Assembly (NCBI RefSeq): GCF_027938815.1
Contig: NZ_CP115913.1
Coordinates: 1,150,001-1,214,000, forward strand
Direction of reading: 5' to 3'
Source: Oceanirhabdus sp. W0125-5
GTDB taxonomy: Bacteria; Bacillota; Clostridia; Clostridiales; Clostridiaceae
DNA length: 64,000 nucleotides
This document shows positions 5,227 to 62,042 of the stretch, one piece after another; within the stretch, counting starts at the first letter, position 1; each line of letters opens with the position of its first letter. The notes under the pieces are model-generated. The model did not search any database. It was not told the DNA's origin and was given only the letters and a program-made list of their open reading frames with translations. Position numbers and translations under genes: made by a program.

Positions 5227-5283
5227 TGAGAATGGAGAATGGAGAATTGAGAATGTCGGATATTTCTCTCCGAGAAATTAAAA
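5227..5283 (+). repeat. Heptad-arm element, fragment (left end only)
   Basis: Four 7-base units (TGAGAAT, GGAGAAT, GGAGAAT, TGAGAAT) are followed by the first internal hairpin ATTTCTCTCCGAGAAAT, after which similarity stops. It is the left end of the element described fully at 61803-62042. Confidence 0.8.
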
Positions 5284-5534
5284 TTTTTGCTATTTTTTAT
5301 CCCAAAAGGGATGTGTGATTCTAAAAAAAGGTATGACAAACACGTGTGATAATGAATATATCTTGGATAACGAGATGTTACTTTGCACAGGACTATCGAC
5401 CTTTAGAGATGGGGGCAAGTCTAATATAGATAAAGTATTGAAAATCAAGGGTTATGTTAAAAGTACCATTAAAACTTTTGACAATACCTAGGGTAGTATG
5501 GGGAAAAAAATATTAATAAAGGAGAATTAATTAT
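5284..5534. other. Intergenic remnant region, no convincing gene
   Basis: An open frame of 52 codons runs from ATG 5333 to TAG 5491, but it has no ribosome binding site and no recognisable motif, so I do not call it. It may be remnant sequence behind the truncated repeat. GGAG at about 5521 is the ribosome site of the next gene. Confidence 0.4.
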
Positions 5535-22451: not shown

Positions 22452-22690
22452 AAACAAATGGATAATGGATAATGTAAAATGTATAATGATGGATATTTCA
22501 CTCTGTGAAATCTTAATCTTATAGTTCCTTGGATAAGATAGGTTTACTCGTATTATATTTGAAATACAATATTTTATCTTAGATAAAATGAGTAAAAACT
22601 CTTGTTCTAAAGAACAATAAGATGTAGTTTCTGCGATAGCAGAAACATCCATCATTATACATTATCAATTTTACATTATACATTTCTTTT
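22452..22690 (+). repeat. Heptad-arm element, complete copy
   Basis: The left arm units are GGATAAT, GGATAAT, GTAAAAT, GTATAAT. The right arm carries matching reverse-complement units. The first hairpin is TTTCACTCTGTGAAA instead of the usual TTTCTCTCCGAGAAA, a compensatory pair of changes. The last hairpin is GTTTCTGC/GCAGAAAC. The terminator at 22692 follows directly. Confidence 0.85.
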
Positions 22691-22691
22691 A

Positions 22692-22717
22692 CAAGCACCT
22701 AGCGGGTGCTTTTTTTA
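22692..22717 (+). terminator. Terminator attached to the repeat
   Basis: AAGCACC-TAGC-GGGTGCTT is followed by TTTTT. It ends the NfeD/SPFH operon and reaches into the last codon of the convergent permease gene. Confidence 0.8.
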
Positions 22718-23512
22718 GTTATGAATATCTTTTCTATTAAATAATACATATGTCAATGAAGTTGCTACAACAACGATTATCAAAGATATTAATACATATA
22801 TAATTTCTATTTCTTGTCCTATCATGATGGATTTAGCATCGAAGTAATAGAACGGTGTAATGAATTTAAGGAAGTCTAATTTATCTGTTAGAGGTATAAC
22901 TAGTGAAAGCATATACAGTCCAAGTACAACACCTGTTGATAATCCAGTAGCTTTTTTAGTTGTTTTAGTTAATGAGGAGAATAATAATCCTAAGCTTAAC
23001 AACACAATTTGAAGAATTAATAGAGTGCAGGTAATTTTAAATATTTCTCCCGTAAGAGACTCTCCTTTATTATAATAAGCTACGGTAACAGCTGAACCAA
23101 TAAAGGTTACAATATTGAAAATTAAAACATTAATAAATGCGGCTATAAGTTTACTTGTAACAGCTTTATGTCTTTTTATAGGTTTAACCATTAAGAAATC
23201 AGCTGTTTTATCGCGCTCTTCTTTTGAGATTATTGTAGCACCTAGCATTATTGCATGAATGCCAGCTATTAAAGTGAAGTATATGAAGAACATACTATAG
23301 AATCCACCAACAGAAGTTAAATTAATTTTATCAAAACCAAACATGCTTCTCATGACTTCAGGAAGAGATTCCATCATTTCATTTACTTCAGAACCCATTT
23401 TAGAAAAGGCGCTGTATTCAACCATACCTATTGATATGAATAAGAACATTGAAACACACCATATAATTAAAGCTTTTCTATTGGCTTTTAATTCTCGTAA
23501 AACAATATTCAT
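22715..23512 (-). CDS. ABC-2 type transporter permease (duplicate 1)
   Basis: This 265-residue membrane protein has about six spans. The conserved block MLGATIISKEERDKTADFLMVKPIKRHK is typical of ABC-2 permeases of the YhfE/NatB kind. It is clearly a duplicate of the gene at 23726-24523, being identical over long stretches. It lies at the distal end of the TetR-ATPase-permease cluster. The ATG is behind GGAGG. Confidence 0.88.
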   Translation of the reverse strand: MNIVLRELKANRKALIIWCVSMFLFISIGMVEYSAFSKMGSEVNEMMESLPEVMRSMFGFDKINLTSVGGFYSMFFIYFTLIAGIHAIMLGATIISKEERDKTADFLMVKPIKRHKAVTSKLIAAFINVLIFNIVTFIGSAVTVAYYNKGESLTGEIFKITCTLLILQIVLLSLGLLFSSLTKTTKKATGLSTGVVLGLYMLSLVIPLTDKLDFLKFITPFYYFDAKSIMIGQEIEIIYVLISLIIVVVATSLTYVLFNRKDIHN

Positions 23513-23529
23513 TTTAATTCCTCCAATCT

Positions 23530-23701
23530 TATTCCTTCTTCAACAAGATGGATTTACTCCTTTCATCATTAAATACAATATTTTATCCTATGGATGAAAT
23601 GAGTAAATGTTCTTTGTTCTAATGAACATAAGATGTAGTTTCTGGGATAGTAGAAACATCCATCATTATACATTATCAATTTTACATTATACATTTCTTT
23701 T
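23530..23701 (+). repeat. Heptad-arm element, left-truncated copy at a duplication junction
   Basis: Only the part from the second hairpin to the right arm is present. The right arm is nearly identical to that of the copy at 22452. Its left edge meets the upstream region of permease 1 at about 23535, so it spans the junction of the tandem permease duplication. Confidence 0.8.
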
Positions 23702-23725: not shown

Positions 23726-24523
23726 CTAGTTGCGAATATCCTTCTTATTAAAGAATATATATGTGAAGGAAGTTGATAATACAATGATTATTAAAGATAT
23801 CAATACATATATTATTTCTATTCCTTGGCCTAGCATGATGTCTTTAGCATCGAAGTAATAGAAAGGTGTTATGAATCTAAGAAAATCTAATTTATCATAT
23901 AAAGGGATTGCTAAAGAAAGAATATACATTCCAAGCACTACAGCTGTTGATAAACTATTAGCCTTCTTACTTGTCTTAGTTAGCGAGGAGAATAAGAGTC
24001 CTAAGCTCAAGAACACAATTTGAAGAATAAATAGTGTACAAGTAATCTTAAATATTTCTCCAGTAATAGCTTCTCCTTTATTATAAAAAGCAACATTCAT
24101 AGCAGAACCAATGAAGGTTACTATATTCAGAATTAATACATTTATAAATGCTGCAATAAGTTTGCTTGTAACAGCTTTATGTCTTTTAATTGGTTTAACC
24201 ATTAAGAAATCAGCTGTTTTATCTCTCTCTTCCTTTGAGATTATTGTAGCGCCTAGCATTATAGCATGAATTCCAGCTATCAAAATGAAATATATGAAGA
24301 ATACGCTGTAGAATCCACCAATAGAAGTTAAATCAATTTTATTAATACCAAACATGTTTCTCATTACTTCAGGAAGAGTTTCCATCATTTCATTTACTTC
24401 AGAACCCATTTTAGAAAAGCCACTGTATTTAATCATTCCCATTGAGATGAATGCGAACATTGAAACACACCAGATAATTAAAGCTTTTCTATTGGCTTTT
24501 AACTCTCTTAATATAATATTCAT
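23726..24523 (-). CDS. ABC-2 type transporter permease (duplicate 2)
   Basis: This is a 265-residue paralogue of the permease at 22715-23512. It has the same length, the same topology and the same MLGATIISKEERDKTADFLM block, with scattered substitutions. Together with 24575-25372 it would form the membrane part of the exporter driven by the ATPase at 25376. GGAGG precedes the ATG. The duplication includes the downstream terminator and half a repeat element. Confidence 0.88.
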   Translation of the reverse strand: MNIILRELKANRKALIIWCVSMFAFISMGMIKYSGFSKMGSEVNEMMETLPEVMRNMFGINKIDLTSIGGFYSVFFIYFILIAGIHAIMLGATIISKEERDKTADFLMVKPIKRHKAVTSKLIAAFINVLILNIVTFIGSAMNVAFYNKGEAITGEIFKITCTLFILQIVFLSLGLLFSSLTKTSKKANSLSTAVVLGMYILSLAIPLYDKLDFLRFITPFYYFDAKDIMLGQGIEIIYVLISLIIIVLSTSFTYIFFNKKDIRN

Positions 24524-31641: not shown

Positions 31642-31896
31642 AATAATGTATAATGTATAATGGAAAATGTATAATGATGGACATTTCTCTTCGAGAAATT
31701 TTAATTGCATTGTTTCTTAGAAAATAGAGGTTTACTCGTTTCATTTTAAATGAAACATTGTATTTAAAATACAATTTTTTATCGAAAATAAAATGAGTAA
31801 AAATTTGTTGTCCTAAAGAACAATGAGATGTAGTTTCTGCGTTAGCAGAAACATCCATCATTATCCATTATACATTATCAATTATCCATTTGTTTT
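31642..31896 (+). repeat. Heptad-arm element, complete copy
   Basis: The left arm is GTATAAT, GTATAAT, GGAAAAT, GTATAAT. The right arm, read on the other strand, is GGATAAT, TGATAAT, GTATAAT, GGATAAT. The internal hairpins TTTCTCTTCGAGAAA, GTTTCATTTTAAATGAAAC and GTTTCTGC/GCAGAAAC are intact. It lies between convergent cstA and ung. Confidence 0.85.
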
Positions 31897-33280: not shown

Positions 33281-33537
33281 AAACAAATGTAAAATGTATA
33301 ATGGAAAATGTATAATGATGGACATTTCTCTCCGAGAAATTTTAATCTTATTGTTCCTTGGACAATAAGATTTTACTCGTTTCATTTTTAATGAAACATT
33401 GTATTTAAAGTACAATATTTTATCCAAGATAAAACGAGTAAGAATCTGTTGTTCTAAAGAACAATAAGATGTAGTTTCTGCGTTAGCAGAAACATCCATC
33501 ATTCTCCATTATACATTATCAATTATACATTTGTTTT
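33281..33537 (+). repeat. Heptad-arm element, complete copy
   Basis: The ends are AAACAAATG...CATTTGTTT. The left units are GTAAAAT, GTATAAT, GGAAAAT, GTATAAT. The right arm mixes GTATAAT and TGATAAT with a GGAGAAT unit. Hairpins TTTCTCTCCGAGAAA, ATTGTTCCTTGGACAAT, TTGTTCTAAAGAACAA and GTTTCTGC/GCAGAAAC are all intact, which makes this a good reference copy. Confidence 0.88.
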
Positions 33538-37086: not shown

Positions 37087-37136
37087 GTATAATTGAGAAT
37101 GGATAATGAAGGATGCTTCTGCCTGAGGGCAGAAGC
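37087..37136 (-). repeat. Heptad-arm element, short fragment
   Basis: Three units of different types (GTATAAT, TGAGAAT, GGATAAT) are followed by GAAGGATG and the hairpin GCTTCTGCC/GGCAGAAGC, corresponding to the right end of the element on the minus strand. It shows that unit types mix within one arm. Confidence 0.65.
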
Positions 37137-37244
37137 TTTATAGTTATAATAAATTATGGGATATATCTCTTTTTTAAGAAAATGTTGAAAAGTATATGCT
37201 TGTAGATACTAGGATTATGATAACATGCACACTTCATATTAAGT

Positions 37245-37919: not shown

Positions 37920-38150
37920 TAATATTCCCCCTTTTATAATAGTAAATCTATAATATATAATAGCGAATATATGTTCTTTTGTCAAAATATTCTTATTTTG
38001 ATTTCTAATATATGTGTATTATTTACACTGTTCTCTAGAATAAAAAGTTCAAAAAGGATATAATTTAATATGGTATATAAAGCTTATTAAAGTAATTTGA
38101 TATAAAAAATCGTAATAGAGAAACATTATGACATCAAACATAACTGAACA
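37920..38150. other. Divergent intergenic region
   Basis: No gene is visible. Bases 38110-38150 (TAATAGAGAAACATTATGAC up to TAACTGAACA) match, in reverse complement, the sequence to the right of the repeat at 51942-52177. The shared unit therefore extends past the heptad arm. Confidence 0.5.
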
Positions 38151-38385
38151 GTTGAAAATGGAAAGTGGAAAACGATGGAGGTTTTGCTCTGCAAAACTAC
38201 ATATTATTGGTCTTTAGAAGAATAGGGGTTTGCTGATTTTATCTTTAGATAAAATATTGTAATTTAGAATACAAGGTTTCATCCAGATTAAACGAGTAAA
38301 CTATTCTTGTCCGAAGAACAATATGATTAAAATTTCTCGAAGAGAAATATCCTACGTTTTCAACTTTCAATTTTCCACTTTCAAC
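38151..38385 (-). repeat. Heptad-arm element, complete copy, inverted
   Basis: The arms are GTTGAAA, ATGGAAA, GTGGAAA on one side and GTTGAAA, GTGGAAA, ATTGAAA, GTTGAAA on the other, exactly the arms of the copy at 51942. The last hairpin is GTTTTGC/GCAAAAC instead of GTTTCTGC/GCAGAAAC. It lies between divergent genes, close to the helicase start. Confidence 0.85.
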
Positions 38386-45061: not shown

Positions 45062-45084
45062 TACAAACGCTTTGCTAAGTTGAG

Positions 45085-45317
45085 AACTGAAAGTTGAAAG
45101 TGGAAAACGATGGATGTTTCTGACTGACGTCAGAAACTAAATTTTATTGTTTTTAACATAATAGGATTTTACTTATTTTAGATAAAATATTGCATTTTAG
45201 TACAATGTTTCATTTAAAATGAAACGAGTAGGTAGCTATTGTTCAAAGAAGAATATAATTTAAATTTCACAGAGTGAAATGTCAATCGTTTTCCACTTTC
45301 AATTTTTAACTTTCAAC
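45085..45317 (-). repeat. Heptad-arm element, complete copy, inverted
   Basis: The arms carry GTTGAAA and GTGGAAA units on both sides. Its end hairpin is GTTTCTGAC/GTCAGAAAC and its other end hairpin TTTCACAGAGTGAAA, both compensated relative to the common forms. It lies between the kinase and spmA. Confidence 0.85.
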
Positions 45318-45444
45318 TATGTTTTAAAACTTTCATAACTTTAGATTTCATATTTCATATGAAGAGTGTATTTTGTATATAAAATTTATAGATAAGGGTA
45401 TAGTTGGGGTGCTTGTCTCATAAATTAAGTTATAAACAATCTAC

Positions 45445-49317: not shown

Positions 49318-49590
49318 TGTTGAAAGCGATGAAGAGAAGAGTAGTAGAGGGAAATATTTAAAGAGAGTCAGAGTAGGTGAAAGCTGACAATATGGAAATC
49401 TATGAAGATGGCCTCAGAGCAGATCTATTGAAAAATGAGTAGGTAGATACGGGTTTGCATACGTTAAAATGCAAGGTAACTTTAAACAATATTAAGTTAC
49501 TTATTAAGGTCCTTATTGTGAGATAAGGATGAACTAGAGTGGTAACGCGTAATATATGCCTCTAAGCTAAATGCTTAGAGGCTTTTTTAT
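49318..49590 (+). promoter_or_regulatory. T-box riboswitch for methionine, upstream of metG
   Basis: It senses uncharged tRNA-Met and allows read-through into metG. The leader has the purine-rich stem I start (AAGCGATGAAGAGAAGAGTA) and the AGAGAGTC/GGTGAAAGCT elements. The likely specifier codon ATG is at 49408-49410, followed by GCCTCAGAG. The T-box AGAGTGGTAACGCG (49536-49549) has the tRNA-end-binding TGGT. The terminator GCCTCTAAGC/GCTTAGAGGC with six T lies at 49558-49588. The specifier was assigned by eye. Confidence 0.9.
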
Positions 49591-49603
49591 TTTAAAAGAT
49601 AAT

Positions 49604-49843
49604 GGAGAATGTAGAATTGAGAATGGAGAATGATTGACATTTCTCTCCGAGAAATTTTAATTTTATTTTTAATTGGACAATAAAGATTTACTCGTTTCAT
49701 TTAGATGAAACATTGAATTTTAATTACAATATTTTATCCTAGGATAAAATGAGTAAAAGTCTATTGTTCTAAAGAATAATAAAATGTAGTTTCTGCGTAT
49801 GCAGAAACATCCATCATTCTCCATTCTACATTCTCAATTCTCC
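49604..49843 (+). repeat. Heptad-arm element, complete copy, inside the metG leader
   Basis: The left arm is GGAGAAT, GTAGAAT, TGAGAAT, GGAGAAT. The right arm, read on the other strand, is GGAGAAT, TGAGAAT, GTAGAAT, GGAGAAT, so the two middle units are swapped. TTTTAAAAG flanks both sides. It lies between the T-box terminator and the metG ribosome site, so read-through transcripts contain it. Confidence 0.88.
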
Positions 49844-49939: not shown

Positions 49940-51898
49940 ATGGATAAGAAAACATACTATATTACTACGCCTATATACTATCCATCAGCAAAGTTACATA
50001 TAGGTAATACATACACTACTGTAGCAGCAGATGCTGTTGCTAGATTTAAAAGATTAACAGGTTATGATGTTATGTTCCTTACAGGAAGTGACGAACATGG
50101 ACAAAAGATTCAGAGAATAGCAGAAGAAAAAGGAGTTACTCCTAAGGCATATGTGGATGAGATTGTTGCTGGAATCAAGGATCTTTGGAAGCTTATGGAC
50201 ATAAAGTATGATAAATTTATAAGAACAACAGATGAGTATCATGAAGAATCAGTTAAAAAAATATTCAAGAAGCTTTATGATCAAGGTGATATTTATAAAG
50301 ATTCATATGAAGGATGGTACTGTACACCATGTGAGTCATTCTGGACTGATACTCAATTAAATGATGGTAAGTGTCCAGATTGTGGTAGACCTGTTGAAAA
50401 GGCTAAAGAAGAAGCTTATTTCTTTAAGATGTCTAAGTATGCTGATAGATTAATTGAATATATAGAGACACATCCAGAGTTTATTCAACCTGAGTCAAGA
50501 AAAAATGAGATGCTAAATAATTTCTTAAGACCAGGATTACAGGATCTTTGTGTATCTAGAACTAGCTTTAATTGGGGAGTACCAGTAGAATTCGACCCAG
50601 GGCATGTTGTTTATGTTTGGATTGATGCACTTTCAAACTATATAACAGCTTTAGGATATGAGAATAATGATTGCGATTTAATGGAAAAGTATTGGCCTGC
50701 AAATGTACATTTAATTGGTAAAGATATATTAAGATTCCATACAATTTATTGGCCAATTATGCTTATGGCATTAGATATAGAGCTTCCAAAGCAAGTATTT
50801 GGTCATGGATGGTTAATGCTTGAAGGTGGAAAAATGTCTAAGTCTAAAGGAAACATAGTAGACCCAGAAGTGTTAGTTAATCATTTTGGAGTAGATGCTG
50901 TAAGATACTATCTTCTTCATGAAATACCATTTGGTTCAGATGGAATATTTAGTAATGAGATTTTCATAAAGAAGACTAACTCAGATTTAGCAAATGATCT
51001 TGGAAACTTACTTTCAAGAACAGTTACTATGATTGATAAATATTTTGGTGGTGAAATACCAGCACCAGCAGAAAAAGAGCCGGTGGATGATGAACTTATA
51101 ACTCTTGCTCTTGAAACTCCTAAGAAAGTTGAAGAGGCAATTGATAACTTAAGAATTCCTGGAGCACTAGATCATATTTGGACTTTAATTAGAAGAACTA
51201 ATAAGTATATTGATGAAACTACTCCTTGGATACTTGGTAAAGATGAAAGTAAAAAAGATAGATTAGCTACAGTTCTTTATAACCTTGCTGAATCATTAAG
51301 ATTTACTTCAGTATTGTTATCATCTTTCTTAACAAAGACAAGTGAAGCAATAAATGAGCAGCTTAATGTAGAGTATACTGCTTGGGATAGCTTAGCATCA
51401 TTTGATGGAACTAAAGCAGGTACAAAGGTTGAGAAAAAAGGAGTAATATTCCCTAGAATAGATGTTGAAAAGAAAATGGAAGAGCTAACTAAGATTGCTG
51501 AAGAGCAGAAGAAATTAGCTGAAGCTGCTAACAAAGAAAAAGAAGAGCAAGAAATGCTTCCATTAAAAGAAGAAATAACTATAGATGATTTTGATAAAGT
51601 TGATTTAAGGTTAGCAAAAGTTTTAGAATGTGAACCAGTTAAAAAGACTAAGAAATTATTAAAATTCCAATTAGATGTTGGTGGGGAAAAGAGACAGGTA
51701 ATTTCGGGAATTGCACAGCACTATAAGCCAGAAGATCTTATAGGGAAATATGTAGTGGTTGTCGCTAACTTGAAGCCAGTAAAATTAAGAGGAGAATTAT
51801 CTGAAGGAATGATTTTAAGTGCAGCTACTAATGACGATAGTAAGTTATTAACAGTAACTATAGATGGAGATCTTCCTACAGGAAGCCTTATTAAATAA
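49940..51898 (+). CDS. metG: Methionyl-tRNA synthetase
   Basis: It charges tRNA-Met with methionine. The 652-residue protein has the class I HIGH motif as KLHIGN, KMSKS in GGKMSKSKGN, a single zinc knuckle (CTPCESFW ... CPDCGRP) and a C-terminal EMAP/tRNA-binding domain (IDDFDKVDLRLAKVLECEPV). AGGAGG precedes the ATG. Expression should be controlled by the Met T-box upstream, about 350 bases before the start because a repeat lies between. Confidence 0.97.
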   Translation: MDKKTYYITTPIYYPSAKLHIGNTYTTVAADAVARFKRLTGYDVMFLTGSDEHGQKIQRIAEEKGVTPKAYVDEIVAGIKDLWKLMDIKYDKFIRTTDEYHEESVKKIFKKLYDQGDIYKDSYEGWYCTPCESFWTDTQLNDGKCPDCGRPVEKAKEEAYFFKMSKYADRLIEYIETHPEFIQPESRKNEMLNNFLRPGLQDLCVSRTSFNWGVPVEFDPGHVVYVWIDALSNYITALGYENNDCDLMEKYWPANVHLIGKDILRFHTIYWPIMLMALDIELPKQVFGHGWLMLEGGKMSKSKGNIVDPEVLVNHFGVDAVRYYLLHEIPFGSDGIFSNEIFIKKTNSDLANDLGNLLSRTVTMIDKYFGGEIPAPAEKEPVDDELITLALETPKKVEEAIDNLRIPGALDHIWTLIRRTNKYIDETTPWILGKDESKKDRLATVLYNLAESLRFTSVLLSSFLTKTSEAINEQLNVEYTAWDSLASFDGTKAGTKVEKKGVIFPRIDVEKKMEELTKIAEEQKKLAEAANKEKEEQEMLPLKEEITIDDFDKVDLRLAKVLECEPVKKTKKLLKFQLDVGGEKRQVISGIAQHYKPEDLIGKYVVVVANLKPVKLRGELSEGMILSAATNDDSKLLTVTIDGDLPTGSLIK

Positions 51899-51941
51899 AG
51901 TTTAGTGCATAATATGAAACTATTGTGCTTTATAAAAGCAA

Positions 51942-52177
51942 GTTGAAAGTGGAAAATTGAAAGTTGAAAACGTAGGATATTTCTCTACGAGAAATCTTAA
52001 TTATATTGTTCTTCGGACAATAAATGGTTTACTCGTTTCATCAGGGATGAAACCTTGTATGTTAAATTACAATATTTTATCTAAAGATAAAATGAGTAAA
52101 CCCTATTGTTCTAAAGAACAATAAAATCTAGTTTTGCGAAGCAAAACCTCCATCGTTTTCCACTTTCCATTTTCAAC
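51942..52177 (+). repeat. Heptad-arm element, complete copy
   Basis: The left units are GTTGAAA, GTGGAAA, ATTGAAA, GTTGAAA; the right units (other strand) are GTTGAAA, ATGGAAA, GTGGAAA. The end hairpin is GTTTTGC/GCAAAAC. Arms and right flank match the inverted copy at 38151-38385. Confidence 0.87.
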
Positions 52178-52374
52178 TGTTCAGTTATGTTTTATATCAC
52201 AAAGTTTCTCTAATATAAATTTTATGACAAATATTAAAATGTACCATTAAGAACAGTTTCAGTAAGACATTGAATAACTTACATGAAACTGTTCTTTTAG
52301 GTTAAACGTATATATAAAAGGACATATTTTGGTGATTTCTTAAGAAAGAATAAAGTTGATAAATTATATAATAA
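52178..52374. other. Spacer between two opposed repeats
   Basis: No gene is seen. A hairpin TAAGAACAGTTTCA / TGAAACTGTTCTTTTAG lies at about 52248-52301. With its T-rich tail it may be the real metG terminator. Confidence 0.45.
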
Positions 52375-52563
52375 ATTTTTTTTATTGTTCTTTAGGACAA
52401 TGGGTTTTTACTCATTTTATTTTAAGATAAAATATTGTATTTAATCTACAAGGTTTCATTGTAAATGAAACGAGAAAATTTATATTATCCAATGAATAAT
52501 ATAATTAAAATTTCACGGAGTGAAATATCAATCGTTGTCCATTGTCAACTGTCCACTGTCAAC
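52375..52563 (-). repeat. Heptad-arm element, truncated copy, inverted
   Basis: One arm is present (units GTTGACA, GTGGACA, GTTGACA, ATGGACA) with hairpin TTTCACGGAGTGAAA and the central hairpins. The other arm and the GTTTCTGC-type hairpin are missing. This is the only copy with the GTTGACA unit type. Confidence 0.8.
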
Positions 52564-56927: not shown

Positions 56928-57753
56928 TGTAGATTTAGTAAAAAAATATGGATTTAAATTTACAAAGAGCTTAGGACAAAACTTTTTAACAGATGATAAT
57001 GTACTAGATGCTATTGTAGAGTCTGCAGAAGTGACTAAAGAGGACTTTGTTATTGAGATTGGTCCTGGAGTAGGGGTTTTAACTTGTAGATTGATAAATA
57101 AAGCTAAACGTGTTTGTGCAGTGGAATTAGATGATAAATTAATACCTATTTTAGAGCAAGAGCTTGGAAAGTGTGATAATTTTGAATTAATTCATGGTGA
57201 TGCTTTAAAAGTGAATTTTAAAGAAATAATTGGTGATGAGAAAAGTGTTAAAGTTGTTGCCAACCTTCCTTACTATGTTACTACACCAATAATATCAAGG
57301 TTTTTAACTGAAGGAATAAATTTTAAATCTCTTACAATAATGATTCAAAAAGAAGTTGCTGAGAGAATTAATGGAGTACCAAAAACAAAGGAGTACGGAG
57401 CACTTTCAGTATTTGCACAATATTACTGTAATACAAGTATTGTAAAAAGAGTTCCAGCAGGATGTTTCATACCACAACCAAAAGTTGATTCTATAGTAAT
57501 AAAACTTGATAAATTAGAAAAACCTAAGGTTGAAGTAGATGATGAAAAATTCTTCTTTAAAGTTGTAAAGCAAGCTTTCCAAATGAGAAGAAAAACTCTT
57601 TGGAATTGTATGAAGGTATTAGGGCTGGAAAAGGAAAAGCTTGAAGAAGCATTTGAAGATGCTAACATAGATATGAAAAGAAGAGGGGAAACTCTTTCAA
57701 TCGAAGAATTTGCAACATTGGCTAATTCTATTTATAGAAAAAGCAAACTTTAA
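56911..57753 (+). CDS. ksgA: 16S rRNA adenine dimethyltransferase
   Basis: This 280-residue enzyme dimethylates two adenosines near the 3' end of 16S rRNA. It has [13 protein letters not shown], the SAM-binding [11 protein letters not shown] and the catalytic [19 protein letters not shown] precedes the ATG. A repeat element with a terminator follows. Confidence 0.96.
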
Positions 57754-57764
57754 AAAAGCTTAAT

Positions 57765-57990
57765 TGAGAATTGAGAATGATTGACATTTCTCTCCGAGAA
57801 ATTTTAATTGTATTGTTTAAGGAACAATAATGGTTTACTCGTTTCATTGAAATGAAACATTGTGTAAATAATACAATATTTTATCCTAGGATAAAATGAG
57901 TAAAAACCTCTTGTACTAAAGAACAATAAGATGTAGTTTCTGCGTTAGCAGAAACATCCATCATTCTCAATTCTCAATTCTCCATTCTCA
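57765..57990 (+). repeat. Heptad-arm element, nearly complete copy
   Basis: The left arm has only two units (TGAGAAT twice); the right arm has four (three TGAGAAT and one GGAGAAT on the other strand). All internal hairpins are present: TTTCTCTCCGAGAAA, GTTTCATTGAAATGAAAC, ATTTTATCCTAGGATAAAAT and GTTTCTGC/GCAGAAAC. Confidence 0.87.
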
Positions 57991-58000
57991 ATTTGTTTTC

Positions 58001-61802: not shown

Positions 61803-62042
61803 TGAGAATGGAGAGTTGAGAATTGAGAATGATTGATATTTCTCTCCGAGAAATTTTAATTGTATTGTTTAAGGAACAATAATGGTTTACTCGTTTCATT
61901 TAAATGAAACATTGTATTAATTAATACAATATTTTATCGCAGATAAAATGAGTAAACACTCCTTGTCCTAAAGAATAATAAAATGTAGTTTCTGCGCAAG
62001 CAGAAACATCCATCATTCTCAATTCTACATTCTCAATTCTCC
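61803..62042 (+). repeat. Heptad-arm element, complete reference copy
   Basis: The left arm is TGAGAAT, GGAGAGT, TGAGAAT, TGAGAAT; the right arm (other strand) is GGAGAAT, TGAGAAT, GTAGAAT, TGAGAAT. Hairpins in order are 61838-61854, 61864-61880, then TTTACTC (61886-61892) pairing with GAGTAAA (61950-61956) around three hairpins at 61893-61910, 61911-61930 and 61931-61949, and the last at 61988-62007. Confidence 0.9.

Follow-up and report, generated by a model that had tools for sequence, protein, structure and literature searches.

Integron attC sites are folded single-strand palindromes that are associated with single foreign-looking genes having their own ribosome-binding site, and MIC231 is a mobile insertion cassette. 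REPINs and BIMEs, the elements of the RAYT enzymes (also known as TnpA-REP, of the HUH Y1 type), are multi-copy palindromic DNA hairpins that lie outside of genes. Their REP units are 20-40 bp long and end in GTAG (PMC3733652). The same source describes TIRtrons (TIRYT), which are Y1 transposase genes without REPs and with inverted repeats that form families (PMC3733652). For MITEs, we follow the definition in PMC4133298.

We analyzed a window of 64,000 nucleotides, which is bases 1150001-1214000 of the 5,775,129-base, single-contig genome of Oceanirhabdus sp. W0125-5, a bacterium of the sea floor. It contains a hairpin-rich intergenic DNA element of about 240 bases. The original prediction for this DNA was that each complete copy has inverted heptad-repeat arms around seven hairpins, three of them inside a TTTACTC/GAGTAAA stem, and the copies are indeed built this way. 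For instance, a full copy in the standard form (left half L, then right half R) lies at 61803..62042 of the window on the + strand, as judged from sequence, search, and fold. Its left heptad arm (61803..61831) pairs in the fold with its right heptad arm (62011..62042, identified from sequence and fold). In hairpin H1 (ATTTCTC/GAGAAAT; 61838..61854), column pair 28-35 differs between copies and can be T-A, A-T, or G-C. The TTTACTC/GAGTAAA stem around hairpins H3, H4, and H5 spans 61886..61956 (from sequence, covariation, and fold), and the central hairpin H4 (ATTGTATT..AATACAAT; 61911..61930) is in the region where long copies elsewhere are split. Hairpin H7 (GTTTCTGC/GCAGAAAC) and its GTAG tag (61985-61988) occupy 61985..62007. 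All of these parts are on the + strand. GTAG is found at the foot of H7 in 74/98 aligned copies, and the equivalent position of H1 reads AAAA in 78/98.

Like REPINs and BIMEs, this element is multi-copy and extragenic and is made of palindromic DNA hairpins. Also, its H7 has a GTAG foot, its minority R-R form resembles an inverted doublet, and the genome encodes proteins of RAYT length. Unlike a REP unit, the element is 240 bp long and has heptad arms, seven hairpins, and gene-carrying forms.

With the copy at 61803-62042 as the query, BLASTN and nhmmer located nine near-full copies in the window, as well as partial copies at 52361-52561 (- strand), 23522-23694, and 5227-5307. Three of the window copies listed here are on the - strand, a point that the prediction had left out. 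These searches also give opposite-strand cross-hits, which arise from the quasi-palindromes. The predicted list of copies was thus recovered except for a fragment at 37087..37155 (+), a heptad arm plus one GCTTCTGC..GCAGAAGC hairpin, which has no search match and is recognized by eye. The fragment at 5227..5307 (+) consists of the left arm and H1.

At many of these positions the corresponding site in O. seepicola could be compared. The site of the near-full copy at 22456..22688 (+), which lacks H3, is empty in O. seepicola. The site of the full copy at 31648..31887 (+) is occupied by a version with a different H7 stem; this site (31642 in the prediction) is common to both species by eye, although it was flagged as unmatched by our script. 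The full copy at 33286..33528 (+) has an internally deleted counterpart, and only the arms are found at the site of the full copy at 57750..57994 (+). The full copy at 45079..45318 (-) and the truncated copy at 52361..52561 (-) both have counterparts in reverse orientation. Two full copies, at 38145..38383 (-) and at 51914..52220 (+; approximate, from alignment, with the search match at 51944-52182), belong to the young subfamily Y that we describe below, and the second of these has longer ends. In the O. seepicola sites that match the window copies at 38151 and 45085, the element's position contains or adjoins another repeat (CAAATAACAAG.CAGTAT..) that is unrelated to the element.

The full copy at 49603..49843 (+) has a T-box leader (49320-49566) on its 5' side and a methionyl-tRNA synthetase gene (49940-51898) on its 3' side. 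It starts directly 3' of the T-run of the T-box leader's terminator, and O. seepicola retains the left half there. The partial copy at 23522..23694 (+), a right part, adjoins the second of two similar tandem genes (22715-23512 and 23726-24523), the first of which is an ABC-2 permease according to Pfam. The right end of this truncated copy is like that of the copy beside the first gene.

To search beyond the window, we used a covariance model built from 34 copies. All 150 of the scored candidates in this genome matched it, so the genome contains at least 150 copies, and 60 of these 150 lie within 1.0-2.0 Mb, or one sixth of the chromosome. A search of relatives, in which 45 candidates from O. 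seepicola were scored and all 45 matched, gives at least 45 copies for that species. Among 206 Clostridiaceae genomes, just two had matches, and both are Oceanirhabdus; we did not find the element in any of the other 204, with 12 candidates scored per genome under strict filters. This shows that the family is genus-restricted within the genomes searched. (An orthologue of one of the window's genes is 93% identical in O. seepicola.) Almost all of the compact copies that we examined (102/103) are outside of open reading frames.

The prediction that this element belongs to no named family also held up. At Rfam's gathering thresholds, the window yields a T-box only; in particular it has no intron match, such as would point to a group II intron-type retroelement. 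Rfam covariance models did not match the element at four loci with E up to 5, nor did we find a match in phage and plasmid collections or with a viral pattern scan. In the open-licence literature, we found no title or abstract opening on the element.

The element is strongly folded. As DNA, 61803-62042 has a predicted folding energy of -53.9 kcal/mol (z = -11.2), and none of 200 shuffles fold as low. The - strand is nearly the same (-52.9 kcal/mol, z = -11.1). The compensated stem changes that were noticed in the window are found across the family: in an alignment of 98 copies (97 distinct; 3 of 101 copies were left out because one is truncated and two are too near the end of the locus), 90.2% of cells across 72 pairs are paired, and pairing falls to 40-47% if the partner columns are slid by 1-3. 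There are 237 double-change cells, as compared to 93.8±8.0 in shuffled alignments, and 0/500 shuffles reach this number. The compensated changes are located in the arms, H1, and H7, and one-sided intermediates are nearly absent. For instance, one pair in H1 has T-A, A-T, and G-C alternatives; one pair in H7 has T-A, C-G, G-C, and A-T, and another has C-G and T-A. A long-range stem between H2 and H6, instead of local hairpins, has 8 double-change cells versus 8.4 expected, which is no covariation above shuffles, so we discarded it.

Covariation of this kind would fit a 3'-UTR RNA element (an mRNA stabilizer, a terminator, or a small RNA) under selection at the level of the transcript. In the local helices taken together, mismatch cells have a G·T to A·C ratio of 202:137, and this excess of G·T comes from H2 (95 G·T and 19 A·C), which is in favor of an RNA and could be due to a transcript-level constraint on H2. 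Without H2 the ratio is 107:118. Because G·T is about as common as A·C there, neither strand is favored outside H2; and the two strands fold equally as well, which suggests a signal at the level of DNA, not RNA. The mismatch parity outside H2, the equal folding of the strands, and an orientation that goes with the replichore and not with the transcript (see below) all point to a structural signal in DNA, and for these reasons we rejected RNA function as the main reading.

The original prediction was that the compensated changes reflect selection on, or copying through, a folded DNA or RNA form. The DNA-level signal bears out part of this, but covariation alone does not show selection, because the same pattern would arise if template switching copied one arm onto the other (PMC8794818, PMC8604942). 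Template switching is described as homogenizing arms and as inverting the spacer between inverted repeats (PMC8604942). Each heptad has a "flavor", which is given by its fourth base. The left and right arms have the identical flavor in 69/101 copies (mean 29.2 and maximum 47 in 5000 shuffles), or in 55/87 copies if the young subfamily is excluded (mean 24.8, maximum 40). The shared arm flavors, the one-step compensated changes, and the inversions and L-R/R-R changes that we describe below are as template switching predicts. From these patterns, we infer that template switching likely maintains the element.

We also examined the orientation of the copies. GC skew is +0.23 in 0.75-2.41 Mb and -0.24 in 5.38-5.78 Mb, and the standard compact L-R copies are on the + and - strands in ratios of 54:14 and 0:12, respectively. 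In convergent gaps, where transcription favors neither direction, 19/20 copies run along the leading strand (the +:- counts are 13:1 in 0.75-2.41 Mb and 0:6 in 5.38-5.78 Mb; p = 4e-5), although this test, like the other orientation and gap tests in this section, was chosen after seeing the data and relies on genes called by a simple rule for open reading frames. Copies also run along the leading strand in 33/40 cases between leading-strand genes, in 6/8 cases between lagging-strand gene pairs, and in 4/8 cases in divergent gaps. Orientation is better predicted by replication than by transcription. The bias in convergent gaps (20 copies) could also arise if some 3' ends tolerate insertions better than others do.

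The gene context offers the RNA explanation some further support. Standard copies are scarce in divergent gaps (20 convergent to 8 divergent, versus 102:143 for all gaps above 100 bp; p = 0.004). The R-R copies are in convergent gaps 8 times and in divergent gaps 0 times (p = 0.001), with the other 5 between tandem genes. Also, 22/77 standard copies have a terminator within 75 nt downstream, versus 150/1398 open reading frames. On the other hand, the element is antisense to lagging-strand gene pairs in 6/8 cases, it has been lost and inverted between the two species, and, as noted above, there is no Rfam match. Overall, an element that acts as RNA seems very unlikely.

To see how these sites change, we compared 60 of them to O. 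seepicola. The flanks were matched at 51 sites (one of which, 1518306, was mapped wrongly) and not at the other 9. At 14 sites, both species have a paired element: six are L-R in the same orientation, one is R-R in both, four are inverted, and three are L-R in one species and R-R in the other. The remaining sites are clean, contain half of the element only, or contain arms with the core deleted.

One subfamily (Y) multiplied recently. It has GAAAGTG arms, a GTTTTGC H7, and longer ends, which are like TAATAAGAAACYATTG with an inverted partner. The parts of the genome that we compared contain 14 copies, and in the listed pairs these are ~89-96% identical over ~303 bp. The end motif has 24 matches genome-wide and the reversed control has 0. 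The prediction had proposed comparing empty sites, and at all five of the comparable sites, the young element is absent from O. seepicola. We considered whether the young outer end is homologous to the right flank of standard copies, and dropped this idea because it held for only 5/77 of them.

Could the family spread with no transposase at all? Homologous recombination, gene conversion, and template switching among palindromes might reshuffle, invert, and spread sequence between 3' ends. The inversions and changes of form at conserved sites fit this, as do the arm-only remnants there, and one clean insertion (site 1429199), which has repeated T-runs on its two sides, includes a terminator. 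However, the new young sites lack any sequence from the family in O. seepicola. Also, near relatives are not near neighbors: the best relative is within 20 kb for just 6/63 copies (permutation mean 2.6, maximum 11). We rate recombination by itself as rather unlikely. As for local gene conversion, identity within 5 kb is not significantly higher (183/2000 permutations were as high), and we rejected it.

To identify copies that are not compact, we scanned 1.66 Mb, plus a further 0.4 Mb (2.06 Mb in total), with separate models of the L and R halves. In the 1.66 Mb, the compact copies comprise 80 of the L-R form and 14 of the R-R form, with none of the L-L form, and another 26 L-to-R pairs are split by 69-2479 bp. 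The further 0.4 Mb had no split pairs, and its 14 L-R copies are all compact. Among the parts that we read, the region from 1.0-2.0 Mb contains 24/26 of the split copies and 13/14 of the R-R copies. These forms show that the left and right halves are modular. R-R copies make up 14/94 of the compact copies in the 1.66 Mb, and in 10 of the 13 that we checked, each end has a hairpin with the GTAG tag and the two hairpins are inverted relative to each other, much like a REP doublet. In the pairs that we scanned with a model of the whole core, the left pieces ended at model positions 96-144 and the right pieces began at 48-88; the two halves therefore overlap at the center, and the split point is not base-precise.

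Most of the splits are short: 18 are 69-252 bp, and by eye, 15 of these 18 have one of two recurring terminator-like hairpins at the center (of the GTTGGTGACA or CTGATTATAG type, with variation in some cases). The other 8 are longer (764-2479 bp), and each of their centers contains an open reading frame of at least 82 amino acids, with a clear ribosome-binding site in most cases. We compared seven of these eight centers to Pfam, using one reading frame each (the 286-amino-acid frame of the eighth, at 2400622, was left out). Five match: an Rce1-like protease, GGDEF, GNAT, an Asp/Glu racemase, and DUF4342. The frames of 161 and 82 amino acids in the other two centers have no Pfam match. Relatives of the 161-amino-acid protein are scattered across Firmicutes and Bacteroidota, among the named hits of our search, which suggests that the gene was acquired. 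As expected if the element is non-autonomous, none of the eight large centers in the 2.06 Mb contains a transposase, as judged by the reading frames and, for seven of them, by Pfam.

The split copies might instead be two decayed neighbors, but the halves are in L-to-R order in 26 cases and in R-to-L order in 3 (p = 1.5e-5), which disfavors this explanation. At spacings of 500 bp or more, the ratio is just 8:3, so the argument is weaker for the gene-carrying copies. A gene-carrying unit is likely, but this is not proven. The contents of such sites vary between the species. At 1369354, Oceanirhabdus sp. W0125-5 has a gene and O. seepicola has a long form without it; at 1420893, O. seepicola has a different reading frame in the place of the GNAT gene; and at 1344267, a compact copy corresponds to 1139 bp with a DUF2268 frame in O. 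seepicola. One could speculate that this is a gene-capture system with no integrase of its own, in which the central hairpin is a loading dock that takes in and exchanges single foreign genes, with bidirectional terminators to insulate them, and that the whole spreads through the genome with the replication fork in the form of folded single-stranded DNA. We view this scenario as quite doubtful. Integron cassettes resemble the element in combining a folded palindrome with a single gene of foreign appearance that has its own ribosome-binding site. The element differs from them in that its gene is inside the palindrome and its copies are scattered, and we did not identify an integron integrase. 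The genome does have 11 matches to tyrosine recombinases. Three of these, of 280 amino acids, have identical scores (2457042, 3132068, and 4412352) and are probably a separate, recent mobile element. There are also two matches to reverse transcriptase.

As in MITEs and mobile insertion cassettes, the element has inverted ends, lacks a transposase, and is multi-copy, with small and gene-carrying forms side by side in one genome. A DDE-type transposon that moves as double-stranded DNA might have left behind both the MITEs and the gene-bearing cassettes; the heptads would be binding sites for its transposase, and the parent would be lost or elsewhere in the genome. The young subfamily's ends, with their inverted partner, are also in favor of this. 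In contrast to such elements, the ends here are clusters of hairpins, and orientation depends on replication. We found no target duplication: at the 14 young copies, direct repeats are not convincingly enriched at any of the offsets that we tried. Nor did we find a related transposase (in the 2.06 Mb that was scanned for halves) or an autonomous copy: by eye, all 24 genome-wide matches to the young end motif adjoin an element, and none is a parent with young ends. A DDE-type origin is therefore unlikely, in our view.

Finally, we asked if a Y1 enzyme might move the element. This genome has nine matches to PF01797, namely four frames of 314-320 amino acids (RAYT length), one of 137 (IS200 length), and four of 43; O. 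seepicola has five matches. The Y1 genes are not flanked by the element: at 0/9 loci from the two genomes was half of an element found within 4.5-5.5 kb, so we rejected a RAYT partnership based on adjacency. Instead, 5/9 Y1 loci have GGGACGG palindromes, and a tenth locus (5472673), by eye, has GGGACGG palindromes only. These palindromes are near 6/7 of the Y1 frames of at least 308 amino acids in the two genomes, and in this genome they adjoin three of the four RAYT-length genes, none of which adjoins this element. RAYT-length Y1 genes (at 2180045, 5096854, and 5472673, and at three loci in O. seepicola) are near GGGACGGTT..AACCGTCCC palindromes, which apparently form their own repeat family. 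These palindromes resemble the description of TIRtrons, while our element does not flank those genes. Because the Y1 genes are accompanied by GGGACGG palindromes and not by the element, it does not qualify as a REPIN, although it resembles one in the way it works.

Nevertheless, movement as single-stranded DNA by a Y1 enzyme would fit the replication-tied orientation, the DNA hairpins, the lack of target duplication, and the GTAG foot. Y1 enzymes use the lagging-strand template (PMC6006769). We tentatively favor, with a little less than even confidence, a genus-restricted family of non-autonomous palindromic elements that a predicted HUH (Y1) transposase moves in trans, in the form of folded single-stranded DNA, and that template-switch copying likely keeps matched. 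An enzyme of this putative class, which would be encoded elsewhere in the genome, would excise the folded element from the lagging-strand template and also insert it there. Template switching between the inverted arms would likely keep the arms and stems matched, and the long copies would travel with their gene as a unit. Compact copies should be tolerable because of their position outside of reading frames. Later, deletion would remove cores and leave the arms, as seen at several sites. Against this reading, Y1 matches are found in 8/12 of the relatives tested, while the element was found in none of the 204 other genomes from the family. Also, the young subfamily has the opposite polarity (11/14 copies are oriented against replication), and the orientations in divergent gaps are 4:4.

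This is a real, genus-restricted palindromic family that has gene-containing forms and is non-autonomous mobile DNA. Beyond what was visible in the window, it includes long gene-containing forms, symmetric R-R forms, and a young subfamily, as well as being limited to one genus. What is new is the orientation that follows replication, the copies that are split at the center and contain reading frames, and the young subfamily that O. seepicola lacks at the comparable sites. Hairpins with a REP-like GTAG, multiplication in the manner of MITEs, and genes within a palindrome are usually separate and are joined here. If an HUH transposase moves the element, then it would count as REPIN-like and gene-carrying. 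Covariation is usually taken to prove an RNA structure, and the inversions and shared arm flavors at conserved sites are well suited to testing if template switching, instead of selection, is behind it. Since one species has at least 150 copies and the other has at least 45, the questions of gene carriage and covariation are testable across strains.
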